A DNA stretch of 64,000 bases from Mariprofundaceae bacterium (GTDB taxonomy: Bacteria; Pseudomonadota; Zetaproteobacteria; Mariprofundales; Mariprofundaceae). The stretch is taken from assembly GCA_030950925.1 (NCBI GenBank), contig JAUZQO010000007.1, positions 1 through 64,000 of the forward strand. The letters are read 5' to 3'. Shown piece by piece: positions 9,430-35,741 of the stretch (positions within the stretch are counted from its first letter, which is position 1; every line of letters starts with the position of its first letter). Below the pieces are notes generated by a model, which saw only the letters and a program-made list of their open reading frames with translations, had not been told where the DNA came from and made no database searches. Position numbers and translations under genes: made by a program.

Positions 9430-9691
9430 ACAATCGGTGTTGATTCAGAATCGTTTGGGTTTGCATGCCCGAGCTTCGGCAGCCTTTGCGACGACGGCAG
9501 GAAAATTCCACAGTGAGATTGGTTTACGTAAGGGTGATATGCAGGTGAATGGTAAAAGTATCATGGGAATTATGATGTTGGCGGCTGCAAAAGGGACGCA
9601 CTTGATGTTGCTAACGGATGGTGAAGATGAACAAGCTGCCATGCAAGCCTTGGTGGGCTTGCTGGCGGACTGTTTCGGTGAACCAGACTGA
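9422..9691 (+). CDS. ptsH: Phosphocarrier protein HPr
   Basis: 89 residues. Both regulatory sites are intact: His15 in NRLGLHARASA, phosphorylated by Enzyme I, and Ser46 in VNGKSIMGIM, the HprK target. The start lies inside the end of the EIIA-Man gene (eight-base overlap), and the stop overlaps the ptsI start. HPr passes phosphate from Enzyme I to the EIIA proteins of the cluster. Confidence 0.95.
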   Translation: MIEQSVLIQNRLGLHARASAAFATTAGKFHSEIGLRKGDMQVNGKSIMGIMMLAAAKGTHLMLLTDGEDEQAAMQALVGLLADCFGEPD

Positions 9692-11346
9692 TGACAAAGC
9701 AGCCCATGGAAGGGCATGCGATTGCCAGTAGTCATGGCATTGTCATTGGACAGGTTCAAAAATTGAATGTTGGAAGCCCTAAAATACCTGAGTATGTTTT
9801 GAATGCAAAGGATGTAAACAGGGAACAACAGCGTTTGGAGCAAGCCACATTTGCGGCACTGGAAGAGCTAAATGTGGAATATGAATATTTACTTCAATTG
9901 AAACAGCAAGAACCCGTGTTGATTTTGGATGCGCATCGCATGTTATTGAAAGATCCCGAGTTTATCGCATATCCCAAAAGCTTGATTGAACATGAATACA
10001 TGAATGCTGAATGGGCATTAAAACAGCAAGTTGAAAACATTGCAGCAACCTTTGATGGGATGCATGATAGTTATTTGCGTAGTAAGCGTTTAGACATTGA
10101 GCAAGTGGGAGAACGCTTGATGCGACATTTGTTGGCATGCCCATTTCAAGCCGACATTCAGCCACACACGCTGCCTGTGGTGGTCATTGCGCAAGATGTG
10201 AGTCCTGCGGATATGATGACACTTTGGCGCTCGGGTGTGGCAGGCATGATTTGTGAGCAGGGTAGTTTGAACGCGCATGCGATGATTATGGCTCGCGGTA
10301 TTGGTATGCCTGCTTTGATGGGTGTGGAGATGGATTTAGCATCGGTGGAAGATGGTATGTTGGTGATATTGGATGCCGAACGTGATTATTGGAAGTTGTG
10401 CCCCAACGAAGATGAACAGCGTGCTTATCAACGGTTTATGGATGCATTTGCTGTGGTACGAAAGGGTTTAATGCGTTTTTCCTCAAAAAAATCGCTCAGC
10501 CAAGATAAGGTGGCGCTACCGCTGTATGCCAATATTGATTGTCAGGATGAACTTAGTTTTGCCATGCAAGTGGGGGCTGAGTCGATTGGCTTATGTCGTA
10601 CGGAGTTTGTTTTTTTGCATCATCGTCGTGAACCCACAGAAGATGAGCAGTTTAAGCACTATTTACAGATGCTTCAAAGTGCTGTGGGCTTAGAAATCAC
10701 TTTTCGTTTGTTGGATATTGGTGGGGACAAGCCCATATTGTTTCAAAAAATTGCAGGTCATGATTACCTTGCGAGTAACCCCAATTTGGGTTTGCGAGGT
10801 GTTCGTTTGTTGTTGGCTGCCCCGCATATTCTGGAAACACAATTAAGGGCTTTGTTGCGTGCTTCACAATATGGAAAAATACGTGTGCTTGTGCCGATGG
10901 TGACGCAATGTGAAGAAATGGAGCAGGTGCATAGGCTGATGATGAGCTGTAGCGAAGATTTGAATATCGAGCCTGTACCGTTGGGTTGTATGATTGAAGT
11001 GCCTGCAGCGGTGATGCTGGCGGATGATTTGGCGAGTGTATCGGATTTTTTTGCCATTGGGAGCAATGATTTAACCCAATATACCTTTGCCGCTGATCGA
11101 GGTGATGAAGAAGTGGCATGTTACTACCAAGATGCTCACCCCATTATCCTGAATATGATTGAACGTGTGGTGAGGGCAGGGCATGAACAAGGTTTGACGG
11201 TGTGTGTGTGTGGCGAACTTGCAGCCAATCCCGATTGCACACAAGCTTTTTTGGATATGGGTATGGATGCCTTGTCGATGAGTTTACATAGTATTTTGCC
11301 GATACGTCAGTGTTTAAGCCGATTAAAACGCAGCAAGAATATATAG
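9691..11346 (+). CDS. ptsI: Phosphoenolpyruvate-protein phosphotransferase (PTS Enzyme I), C-terminus shortened
   Basis: 551 residues. The phospho-His is His196 in GSLNAHAMIMARGIGMPALMG. The C-terminal PEP-binding barrel is present (GLCRTEFVFLHH, LDIGGDKP, NPNLGLRGVR, FAIGSNDLTQYTFAADR). Enzyme I transfers phosphate from PEP to HPr. The family is usually about 570-575 residues. Here the protein stops shortly after GMDALSMSLHSILPI, where relatives continue for roughly 25-30 residues. The TAG stop lies inside the left end of a mobile element starting at 11342, so the last helix has probably been lost by insertion. The barrel core is intact; whether dimerisation or activity suffers cannot be told from the sequence. 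Confidence 0.92.
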   Translation: MTKQPMEGHAIASSHGIVIGQVQKLNVGSPKIPEYVLNAKDVNREQQRLEQATFAALEELNVEYEYLLQLKQQEPVLILDAHRMLLKDPEFIAYPKSLIEHEYMNAEWALKQQVENIAATFDGMHDSYLRSKRLDIEQVGERLMRHLLACPFQADIQPHTLPVVVIAQDVSPADMMTLWRSGVAGMICEQGSLNAHAMIMARGIGMPALMGVEMDLASVEDGMLVILDAERDYWKLCPNEDEQRAYQRFMDAFAVVRKGLMRFSSKKSLSQDKVALPLYANIDCQDELSFAMQVGAESIGLCRTEFVFLHHRREPTEDEQFKHYLQMLQSAVGLEITFRLLDIGGDKPILFQKIAGHDYLASNPNLGLRGVRLLLAAPHILETQLRALLRASQYGKIRVLVPMVTQCEEMEQVHRLMMSCSEDLNIEPVPLGCMIEVPAAVMLADDLASVSDFFAIGSNDLTQYTFAADRGDEEVACYYQDAHPIILNMIERVVRAGHEQGLTVCVCGELAANPDCTQAFLDMGMDALSMSLHSILPIRQCLSRLKRSKNI

Positions 11347-11479
11347 TGATTCAAGTATTAAATCAGCCCCGTCATTCCCGAAATCTTTTATCGGGAATCT
11401 AATGATAGACCCTCGATACAAGCACTCAAGGGTGACGATTGGATGATATAAATGATAGTTCTATACTTGAATGACTATA
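11342..11479. mobile_element. MITE-like inverted-repeat element, copy 1 (138 bp)
   Basis: The left end TATAGTGATTCAAGTAT and the right end, read in reverse complement (TATAGTCATTCAAGTAT), match at 16 of 17 positions. Inside are two hairpins: ATTCCCGA/TCGGGAAT (perfect 8 bp) and ACCCTCGA/TCAAGGGT (one mismatch). No coding capacity. The ends resemble the TATAGTGGATTAA ends of neisserial Correia elements, and the first hairpin resembles the widespread GTCATTCCC...GGGAATC repeats; relatedness is not shown. A second copy lies at 33004-33132. This copy separates ptsI from prlC and provides the ptsI stop codon. It is probably non-autonomous and moved by a transposase encoded elsewhere. Confidence 0.85.
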
Positions 11480-32225: not shown

Positions 32226-33008
32226 ATGCGGGTGTTTTTTATTTGTTTGTTGGGTTTGTTGATGTCGCCTTTTGTGGCGAAATCTGCACCCATACATATT
32301 CAATTGCAGTTGAAGTGGAAGCATCAGTTTCAATTTGCAGGTTATTATATGGCACTGGAAAAGGGTTATTATCGAGATGTGGGTTTGGATGTTGAAATTT
32401 TAGAGGGTGAACCCAGTGAGCATGCAACAAAGTTTTTGAAGCAAGGTAGACACCGCTATGCTGTTGGGGAAACATCAGATATGCTGGCTTATGTTAAAGG
32501 TGAAAAAATACGCATTTTGATGGCGTTGTACCAGCATTCACCGAAAGTAGTTATTGTACGAGAAGACTCTGGCATTCGGCATTTTTCAGAGCTGTCGGGT
32601 CATCGTTTGATGTTGAGTGAAGGTTTGAAGTATGGTGAAATTCGGGCTGCTTTGGAGGCATCGGGTGTTCATGTAGATGATGTGACAGTTGAACAGAATG
32701 ATGCGTATGTGATTGAGTCACTGCAACGGGGTACTGTGGATGGGATGAGTGCTTACCTAAGTAATGAACCTTATACGTTGGATCAGATGGGAGTGCCATA
32801 CCGTATCTTACATCCTAGAGACATTGGTATTGATTTTTATGATGATTTTTTATTAACATCGGAAGATGAGGTGGTTTTATACCCTCAAACTGTGCGAGCC
32901 TTTGTGAAGGCGACGAAAAAAGGCTGGCGAGATGCGATGTTGCAGCCAGAGCAAGCCATCGCTTTGATTCAAAAAAATACAATACACAGCACTTATCGCA
33001 TGATATAG
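32226..33008 (+). pseudogene. 5' half of a disrupted sensor kinase gene: signal peptide plus NMT1/THI5-like binding domain
   Basis: 260 residues from ATG 32226 behind GAGAGGAG. A signal peptide (RVFFICLLGLLMSPFVAKS) leads into an NMT1/THI5-like periplasmic binding domain: IQLQLKWKHQFQFAGYYMALEKGYYRDVGLDVEI, then the second-lobe features. The domain ends abruptly at ...STYRMI, followed by a TAG inside a mobile element (33004-33132). The missing C-terminal part (KLLYEANALLPLL...) is encoded just after the element in the same frame. The product would be an incomplete, soluble, exported domain. Related intact proteins fuse this domain to PAS-histidine kinases and are thought to sense a small ligand; pyrimidine-like ligands are known for the fold but the ligand here is unknown. 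Confidence 0.85.
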
Positions 33009-33132
33009 TGATTCAAGTATTAAACCACCGTCATTCCAGAGTACTTGTGTCTGGAATCTATCAATAGACCCTCGACACAAGGATTCGAGGGTGACAGCAA
33101 CATAATGTAGTATTCATACTTAAACGACTATA
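33004..33132. mobile_element. MITE-like inverted-repeat element, copy 2 (129 bp), inside a sensor kinase gene
   Basis: Same family as 11342-11479. Left end TATAGTGATTCAAGTAT; right end in reverse complement TATAGTCGTTTAAGTAT (14 of 17). The internal hairpins are ATTCCAGA/TCTGGAAT and ACCCTCGA/TCGAGGGT, both perfect. It brings two in-frame TAG stops (33006 and 33108) into the host gene. Its length is divisible by three, and removing 33004-33132 rejoins the host frame exactly. A TA target duplication cannot be separated from the TATA ends. The right end creates a TATAAA at 33129-33134 that could serve as a -10 box for the 3' half; no good -35 is seen. Confidence 0.88.
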
Positions 33133-33155
33133 AATTACTTTATGAAGCAAATGCA

Positions 33156-35741
33156 TTGCTGCCATTATTGGCTTGGGATCGTGTGGATGTGGGCTATATT
33201 AGCGAGCATCGCTTGAGCTTGATGATCAAAACATTTGTGCGCTTGGGTTGGTTGGACAAGCCATTTGATGTGTCTGATTTTTTGTATGATGTAGATCACT
33301 TAAGTGATGAAGAGGTGTGGTTGGAGTCACATGCTTGGCAGTTACTGGGTGCAATACTCTTTGTTTTGTTGGTTCTGGCTGCTTTGAGTTTGCGATATGC
33401 GCGCAAAGTGCTGCGTCATAAAACGGCGGAGCTGGTGGCGAGTGAAGCCATGTGGCGACACTTTGTAGACATCGCGGACATTGGTATTTTTATTCATAGT
33501 CAAGGCAAAATATTGTTTGCGAATACTTATATGTTGGAGCGTATGGGTATGACAGCAGAAGGTGTTATCGGCGTTGAGGTCGCCAAGCATATTCATTCCA
33601 ATGATTTATTGTTAGTGGCGCAACGTGTGCAAGATATTATGGAACATGACGCGGTGATTAGGGGAGAATTGGTACGTTACATTTCAGCTTCGGGGGAAAT
33701 GTTTGATGTTGAAATATCATCGCTTCGTATTCTTTTCAATGGGGATCTGGCTGTATTGGGTGTGGCGCGTGATATCACGGCGAAAAAATGTGCCGAAGCT
33801 GCTTTGAAAGCGAGTGAGGCACAGTACCGCCAGTTGGTAGAATGCTCGCCCGATGCTGTGCTTGTGCATCAAGGCGGAGCTTGGTGCTTTGCGAATTCGG
33901 CAGGGCTGAAGTTGATGGGTGCCAAAGTGATGGATGAACTGTTAGGGAAGCCTATTTTGGAATCTGTCCACCCAAATTATCATAAAATCGTGGCTGAGCG
34001 TATGAAAAAAGAGTTGTTTGAAGGTGAACCCGTGCCGTTGATCGAAGAGCGTTTCATTCGTTTGGATGGCACAGCGTTCTGGGCGGAAGTGACGGGGATT
34101 CCTGTTCAGTATAAAGCTGCTTCAGCCAGCTTGTTAATTGTACGCGACATTACAGATAGAACACAGGCGACCATACAACTGCGTCAAGAAAAACGAAAAA
34201 TGAGCATTATTTTGGATCATGCACCGATTGGTATTTGGATGAGTGACTTGAATGGCTCCATTCAATTGATTAACAAAGCCTTTACTGATGCGATGGGTAT
34301 TTCAGAGGAGACTTTTGTGGCAGCGTATGCTTATGTAGACTTATTGCCCAAAGATATGGCGGTTTCCTGTAGTGCTTCGGATCAAGCTTGTATTCAAAGC
34401 AAACAAAAGGTTGTGACGCAGGAGTACATTCCATGTGTGGATGGAAAGGTACATGTGTTTGATATTATCAAAGCGCCAGTCTTGGATGATGAAGGTGGAG
34501 TCTTGGGGGTTGTGGGTTTATCCATTGATGCCAGTGAAAGAATGGAAGCCGAAGCGGAAAAAGAACGTATGCAGCATCAAGTGGAACATACACAGCGACT
34601 TGAATCATTGGGTGTGCTTGCGGGTGGTGTGGCGCATGATTTTAACAATATTTTGGCAACTATTTTGGGTAATGCCAGCTTAATACAGTGTAAATTACCA
34701 ACTGATACCGATGTATCCTTGCATTTGCAGCGGATCGTCATGGCTTCGGAAAAAGCCAGTTTGTTATGTAGTCAAATGTTAGCATACGCAGGGCAGGGTC
34801 AAATAGCAGTGCGTTCTTTGAACATGACAGACTTGAGTCGAAGTATAGCCTCTTTGTTGGAAGTAAGTATTGGTGCTGGTGTGGATCTATCCTATGATTT
34901 GGATGCCAACCTGCCCATGGTTGATGCGGATGAAGCACAAATGCAACAGTTGGTAATGAACTTGGTCATCAATGCATCGGAAGCGATGGATGGTATGAAT
35001 GCTGGTCACATTGCACTGAAAACAAGTATGAAGAAGATCTTACCCGAAGATTTGCAGGCGGCTGTGGGTGAACCTGATGTGCGTTTGGTAGATGATTATG
35101 TGTGCTTGCAAGTGTCAGATGATGGATGTGGGATGGATGCAGATGTGTTGGGGCGTATATTTGAACCCTTTTTTACGACGAAATTTACGGGTCGAGGCTT
35201 AGGTATGAGTGCCTTGTTGGGCATAGTCCGTGCGCACAAAGGATGTTTAAGTGTGCGTAGTAAGAAAGGTGAGGGGACGCGGTTTCGTGTGTTTTTACCT
35301 GTGGGTCAGATGCTTTTTATGCCTAAAAAGGATGTGGAGCCTGTACTGCTTGTGCCCTCGAATGCGATGGGAACGGTGTTGGTGATTGACGATGATGAGA
35401 TGATTCGAGAAACCGTGGTGATGATGTTGGAAGATTTTGGTTATGAAGCCTTGGTTGCGGAAGATGGTGCAGCGGGTGTGGAAGTATATCGTCAGCACCA
35501 AGCTGATATTCAAGCGGTGTTGTTGGATGTGACCATGCCAAAAATGAATGGTTTGCAATGTTTTAAGCTGCTAAAAGAAATGAATGCTGATGTGAAAGTT
35601 TTTTTATCTTCGGGATATCAAGAGCAACAAACCTTGCAAGGTTTGGGTGATATTGATTTGGCGGGCTATATTCAAAAGCCCTACCGCCCTGAAGTTTTGG
35701 AAGAGATGTTGATCGCTGCTTTGTTGCCAAAATCACTGTGA
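33156..35741 (+). CDS. 3' half of the disrupted gene: PAS-containing hybrid sensor histidine kinase
   Basis: 861 residues from TTG 33156; host codons continue upstream to 33132, so this is a fragment of a protein of about 1130 residues. Residues 1-45 are the end of the NMT1 domain. A membrane helix (62-80) leads to three PAS domains (about 100-215, 220-340, 345-465), a histidine kinase core with H-box GGVAHDFNNILATILGN, an ATPase domain (NLVINASEAMDG, DDGCGMD, IFEPFFTTK, GRGLGMSALLG) and a C-terminal receiver with phospho-Asp in AVLLDVTMPKMNG. Without the signal peptide and most of the binding domain, ligand sensing must be lost, though a cytoplasmic or one-helix kinase might still be made. 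ATG 33222 is another possible start. Confidence 0.85.
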   Translation: MLPLLAWDRVDVGYISEHRLSLMIKTFVRLGWLDKPFDVSDFLYDVDHLSDEEVWLESHAWQLLGAILFVLLVLAALSLRYARKVLRHKTAELVASEAMWRHFVDIADIGIFIHSQGKILFANTYMLERMGMTAEGVIGVEVAKHIHSNDLLLVAQRVQDIMEHDAVIRGELVRYISASGEMFDVEISSLRILFNGDLAVLGVARDITAKKCAEAALKASEAQYRQLVECSPDAVLVHQGGAWCFANSAGLKLMGAKVMDELLGKPILESVHPNYHKIVAERMKKELFEGEPVPLIEERFIRLDGTAFWAEVTGIPVQYKAASASLLIVRDITDRTQATIQLRQEKRKMSIILDHAPIGIWMSDLNGSIQLINKAFTDAMGISEETFVAAYAYVDLLPKDMAVSCSASDQACIQSKQKVVTQEYIPCVDGKVHVFDIIKAPVLDDEGGVLGVVGLSIDASERMEAEAEKERMQHQVEHTQRLESLGVLAGGVAHDFNNILATILGNASLIQCKLPTDTDVSLHLQRIVMASEKASLLCSQMLAYAGQGQIAVRSLNMTDLSRSIASLLEVSIGAGVDLSYDLDANLPMVDADEAQMQQLVMNLVINASEAMDGMNAGHIALKTSMKKILPEDLQAAVGEPDVRLVDDYVCLQVSDDGCGMDADVLGRIFEPFFTTKFTGRGLGMSALLGIVRAHKGCLSVRSKKGEGTRFRVFLPVGQMLFMPKKDVEPVLLVPSNAMGTVLVIDDDEMIRETVVMMLEDFGYEALVAEDGAAGVEVYRQHQADIQAVLLDVTMPKMNGLQCFKLLKEMNADVKVFLSSGYQEQQTLQGLGDIDLAGYIQKPYRPEVLEEMLIAALLPKSL

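Follow-up and report, generated by a model that had tools for sequence, protein, structure and literature searches.

The window, as we call the whole 64,000-nucleotide stretch of DNA analysed here, holds on its forward strand a hybrid sensor kinase gene in two parts that are separated by a 129-bp repeat (Table 1). The 5' fragment encodes a signal peptide followed by an NMT1/THI5-like periplasmic binding domain, and its stop codon (TAG, 33006-33008) is donated by the left end of the repeat. The 3' fragment encodes, in order, the end of the NMT1 region, a transmembrane helix, three PAS domains, HisKA, HATPase_c and a receiver (REC) domain; its first in-frame start-like codon is a TTG at 33156.

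Table 1. Features of the split kinase locus, in window coordinates.
Feature	Position	Strand	Basis
5' fragment of hybrid kinase gene	32226..33008	+	ORF list, PF09084 E=5e-47
A7 run, 1-nt deletion relative to A8 in the NORP31 orthologue	32970..32976	+	DNA alignment
129-bp MITE-like repeat, both TAs included	33004..33132	+	genome copies, empty site
Left TA of duplicated target dinucleotide	33004..33005	.	NORP31 (G005) empty site has a single TA
Right TA of duplicated target dinucleotide	33131..33132	.	NORP31 (G005) empty site has a single TA
3' fragment of hybrid kinase gene	33135..35741	+	ORF list, Pfam, NORP31 orthologue

NORP31 (G005), the MAG Zetaproteobacteria bacterium of the same genus, carries this gene uninterrupted, as a single open frame of 1134 codons, which upholds the earlier note's reading of the two fragments as a single hybrid kinase gene, encoding about 1130 residues, that a mobile element has cut. 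The 5' fragment shares 95% identity with residues 1-254 of the NORP31 protein, and the 3' fragment shares 87% with its residues 267-1134, with a dN/dS of 0.24.

The 129-bp element is a dispersed, non-coding repeat

A sequence search across the 1.97-Mb draft genome (75 contigs) returned 67 matches to the element, 21 of them full-length and 97-100% identical over all 129 bases, which is far beyond chance. Of the full-length copies, eleven match the consensus exactly. The window copy departs from it at 2 of 129 positions, and one of these differences also occurs in two other copies. The element is bounded by imperfect terminal inverted repeats (TIRs) with 20-bp arms that are 80% complementary (TATAGTGATTCAAGTATTAA / TATAGTCGTTTAAGTATGAA), and its mobile unit is 127 bp when one TA is counted. 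The consensus has stop codons in all six frames and is without coding capacity, and both strands can be folded into a long hairpin (-35 and -42.9 kcal/mol, with z of -4.2 and -4.8). The end pattern TATAGTGATTCAAGTAT, with up to three mismatches allowed, gave 82+82 hits in the genome as against 6+2 for a reversed-pattern control, so related elements are even commoner than the full-length census indicates. NORP31 has its own versions of the element, the best of them 89% identical, and other genomes of the genus have more distant forms; from these identities each species appears to have amplified a subfamily of its own.

No match was found inside the element in Rfam, where the sole weak hit was a sub-threshold histone stem-loop upstream of it. 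Searches of phage and plasmid collections with the element, and of IMG/VR with a 34-bp exact pattern, likewise gave no match, and spread of the element by phages or plasmids was rejected on these grounds. Among the papers searched, none on MITEs in Zetaproteobacteria was found.

Partial and whole copies also occur in nested or tandem arrays elsewhere in the window's genome (G000:C9:3056-3287, C44:14416-14681, C71:9494-9747, C14:2220-2450, C41:2695-2937, C10:6360-6625 and C40:18365-18628), which look like MITEs inserted into related MITEs. The window itself holds a second TIR-bounded element of the same superfamily, 138 bp long, at 11342-11479 (TATAGTGATTCAAGTAT ... ATACTTGAATGACTATA). It supplies the stop codon of a gene for a PEP-utilising enzyme I / PtsP-type protein (9682-11346; PF02896, E=2e-87), so the natural C-terminus of that protein may be altered. 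No empty site for this second element was seen in the NORP31 stretch examined at the expected place.

Empty sites reveal a duplicated TA

At the kinase locus, DNA alignment places CATGA-TA-AATTG in NORP31 against CATGA-TA-(element)-TA-AATTA in the window. NORP31 thus keeps one TA, and the insertion, which duplicated the TA, added 127 bp in all. For 15 further copies, the expected empty site was built by fusing the two flanks at one TA and was looked for in NORP31. Clean single-TA empty sites were found for four copies (L004, L008, L009 and L013; flanks 93-100% identical) and probable ones for two more (L012 and L015; flanks 84-88% identical), while L005 and L003 were left out of the count because of drift at the junction. 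The TA was therefore duplicated on insertion at the kinase site and at least at four other sites.

With 21 copies at 97-100% identity and an empty site in NORP31, the insertion in the kinase gene is real, as had been proposed, and the genome has undergone a recent burst of copies. The element shows the features by which bacterial MITEs are recognised: it is short and non-coding, has TIRs, duplicates its target as seen at empty sites, and is present in dispersed, near-identical copies. We class the 129-bp piece among MITEs of the Correia/IS630 type, which are non-autonomous DNA transposons.

Two mutations by chance leave the halves in one reading frame

The earlier note had held that the element keeps the frame, and that deleting 33004-33132 exactly would give back an ancestral STYRM-KLLYEAN junction. 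That both halves lie in one frame of the window speaks for such a 129-bp unit. The NORP31 orthologue, which had been looked to as a check, is indeed not split, but its sequence contradicts the predicted junction: with one TA remaining, the mobile unit lengthens the gene by 127 bp and would by itself put the halves out of frame. In addition, a run of eight As in NORP31 is one of seven in the window, about 30 bp upstream of the element. NORP31 and three more distant genomes share the segment ..KYN.Q.LSRDQL.FEA.., with K, Y, N and Q invariant in the four genomes, whereas the window protein reads QKNTIHSTYRMI* there and is already out of frame ahead of the element. The true junction in the relatives is ...IQKKYNTQHLSHDKLLYEAN..., and the NORP31 empty site reads ..QHLSHDKLLYEAN.. 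with its 8 As; STYRM is a product of the frameshifted sequence. An exact 129-bp excision that restores the frame is ruled out by this empty site, and a frame-keeping element is now scarcely credible.

An insertion of 127 bp alone would break the frame, but with the loss of one A the difference becomes 127 - 1 = 126, a multiple of three, so the halves seem to share a frame. These data show that the common frame arose by chance from two separate changes and that the kinase allele, as assembled, carries two lesions, the element and the change from A8 to A7. The statement that the rest of the gene has no other stop or frameshift accordingly stands for the 3' ORF, which is open as far as 35741, and fails for the 5' part as assembled.

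The A7 run could be a real mutation or a slip of sequencing or assembly. Homopolymers are often misread by one base and the genome is a draft in 75 contigs, but a gene that is already inactivated would also be expected to gather such slips; we consider it quite possible, though at somewhat below even chances, that the run is an error and the element the only real lesion. If A8 is the true sequence, the frame translation enters the element for about 20 residues (IVIQVLNHRHSRVLVSGIYQ) and then meets a stop. The sensor is severed from the kinase whether or not the loss of the A is real.

Age and fate of the 3' half

Around the locus, dS between the window and NORP31 is about 0.1-0.3. With G007 as the outgroup, the 3' half has 43 N/62 S changes on the window branch and 70 N/48 S on the NORP31 branch (Fisher p = 0.007), so the window branch has the smaller and not the larger share of amino-acid changes, and much of the difference comes from one PAS stretch. 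These substitutions give no excess of amino-acid change, as expected either of a young break or of a 3' half that remains in use. The earlier note's view that the insertion is recent agrees with the NORP31 empty site, the near-identical copies and a 3' half without accelerated decay.

The PAS region at 33441-34550 stands apart in the comparison with NORP31 (dS 0.50, dN 0.12; dS is about 0.15-0.33 in the rest of the gene), as if it had been swapped by recombination.

An alternative is that the gene is not dead: transcription that starts at the right end of the element, or read-through, would let the 3' half give a sensorless, membrane-anchored hybrid kinase. The 2.6-kb ORF is intact, the window branch is free of excess amino-acid changes, the sister genome G007 has an uninterrupted 910-codon version from which about 223 sensor residues are missing in frame, and Correia elements have been reported as promoter carriers (PMC10969869). 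A young insertion would, however, give an equal substitution pattern, and TTG 33156, the first start-like codon, has no clear ribosome-binding site. The suggestion that a promoter arises from the TATAAA at the right end of the element also fared poorly: a promoter scan at TATAAA 33131 found no -35/-10 pair and no -35 at the proper distance, and in the region where the 3' half starts it gave two weak hits, which is the chance level (1.0 +/- 1.0). A promoter at this end was set aside on that result, and we regard a live 3' half as unlikely. A wider proposal seems to us very improbable, namely that sensor loss recurs and is tolerated in the genus, by the MITE split here and by the in-frame deletion in G007, and that in the window the element drives expression of the 3' half as a constitutive or re-wired kinase.

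The G007 orthologue (L181, on G007:C360, reverse strand) has its 223 or so NMT1 sensor residues deleted in frame from the open frame; unless this is an assembly artefact, it is a natural sensor-poor form of the kinase. The window's genome also has a paralogue on contig C43, a 1038-codon open frame whose sensor is 37% identical, so sensing of this type may not be lost altogether.

A candidate IS630-family mobiliser

One complete-looking IS630-family element lies in the genome at G000:C29:1284-2231 (L106) and is 948 bp long with both TAs, with the ends TATAGTGAATCAAG. Its orfA matches PF01710 HTH_Tnp_IS630 (E=1e-16) and its orfB PF13358 DDE_3 (E=2e-38); the two frames are offset by -1 and join at an A9 run, which points to an apparent -1 frameshift. 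A two-frame -1 arrangement is known in the IS630 family. The transposase is of the DD34E type, with 34 residues from the second D to the E as counted on the translation, and the TIRs (TATAGTGAATCAAGAAT / TATAGTGAATCAAAAAT) have a TA on both flanks. The ends of this element match the left TIR of the MITE at 16/20 and 15/20 positions and the right TIR at 13/20 and 12/20; the left end of the MITE also has a 17/20 match in an IS630 element of G008 (L142). An IS630 element of the same genome, with matching ends and a TA target, is thus found as far as the left TIR is concerned, with a weaker match at the right.

The DD34E transposase, the similar TIRs and the TA flanks together make the C29 element the best candidate partner, and by this resemblance it is most likely the mobiliser of the MITE. 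The inner 90 bp of the MITE, compared with the C29 element, gave no sign of derivation from it; with this and a match of only 12-13/20 at the right TIR, another transposase could be the mobiliser.

A remnant of an IS630 DDE gene (G000:C22:42609-42858, L109), which shares 59% identity with the C29 copy across 44 residues, lies immediately next to a MITE copy that apparently inserted into the remnant.

Discussion

In the history that we propose, a MITE entered a hybrid sensor histidine kinase gene at a TA, which became duplicated; most likely it was moved by cut-and-paste by the IS630-family transposase of the same genome. The stops that the element carries in every frame end translation of the sensor and part it from the kinase, and a separate one-base loss in the upstream A run makes the halves look as if they were in one frame. 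On this account the kinase gene is a young pseudogene with two lesions in the present assembly. We hold this account as a whole with high confidence, and infer the loss of kinase function from it. An insertion of this sort is an ordinary event, and so is the loss of this kinase gene.

The locus documents, with empty sites and a candidate autonomous partner, a recent burst of TA-target MITEs in a small zetaproteobacterial genome, and the MITE and IS630 pair may serve as a test system for the movement of Correia-type elements. It also carries a caution, as an insertion that seems frame-preserving in a single sequence can be a coincidence.

The element is like the Correia elements of Neisseria (CREE/NEMIS) in that these are about 100-155 bp long, gene-less and repeated in many copies, with TA-ended TIRs and a duplicated target. 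The Correia TIR also begins TATAGTGGATT. To our knowledge, no transposase has been established for Correia elements, whereas the window's genome offers a candidate IS630 mobiliser. Promoters and an IHF site are further features of the Neisserial elements, whereas the promoter scan of the window element gave no support for a promoter. For Correia elements, too, an empty site shows that the repeat (107 bp) exceeds the mobile unit (105 bp) by 2 bp (PMC2229807), as in the 129 and 127 bp found here. The likeness to the element is confined to size, TA ends and the start of the TIR.

With the IS630/Tc1-mariner insertion sequences the element has the TA target and similar terminal bases in common, but it encodes no protein. 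Likened by description, RUP of Streptococcus pneumoniae is also a MITE with a proposed IS630 transposase, mobilisation by IS630-Spn1 having been suggested (PMC2229807), although its host belongs to another phylum. The MITEs of Candidatus Thiomargarita nelsonii, which have TATA ends and long hairpins and one of which interrupts hupL, are similar by description as long-hairpin MITEs that break a gene; no strong IS candidate was found for them (PMC4853749), whereas in the window's genome such a candidate is present.
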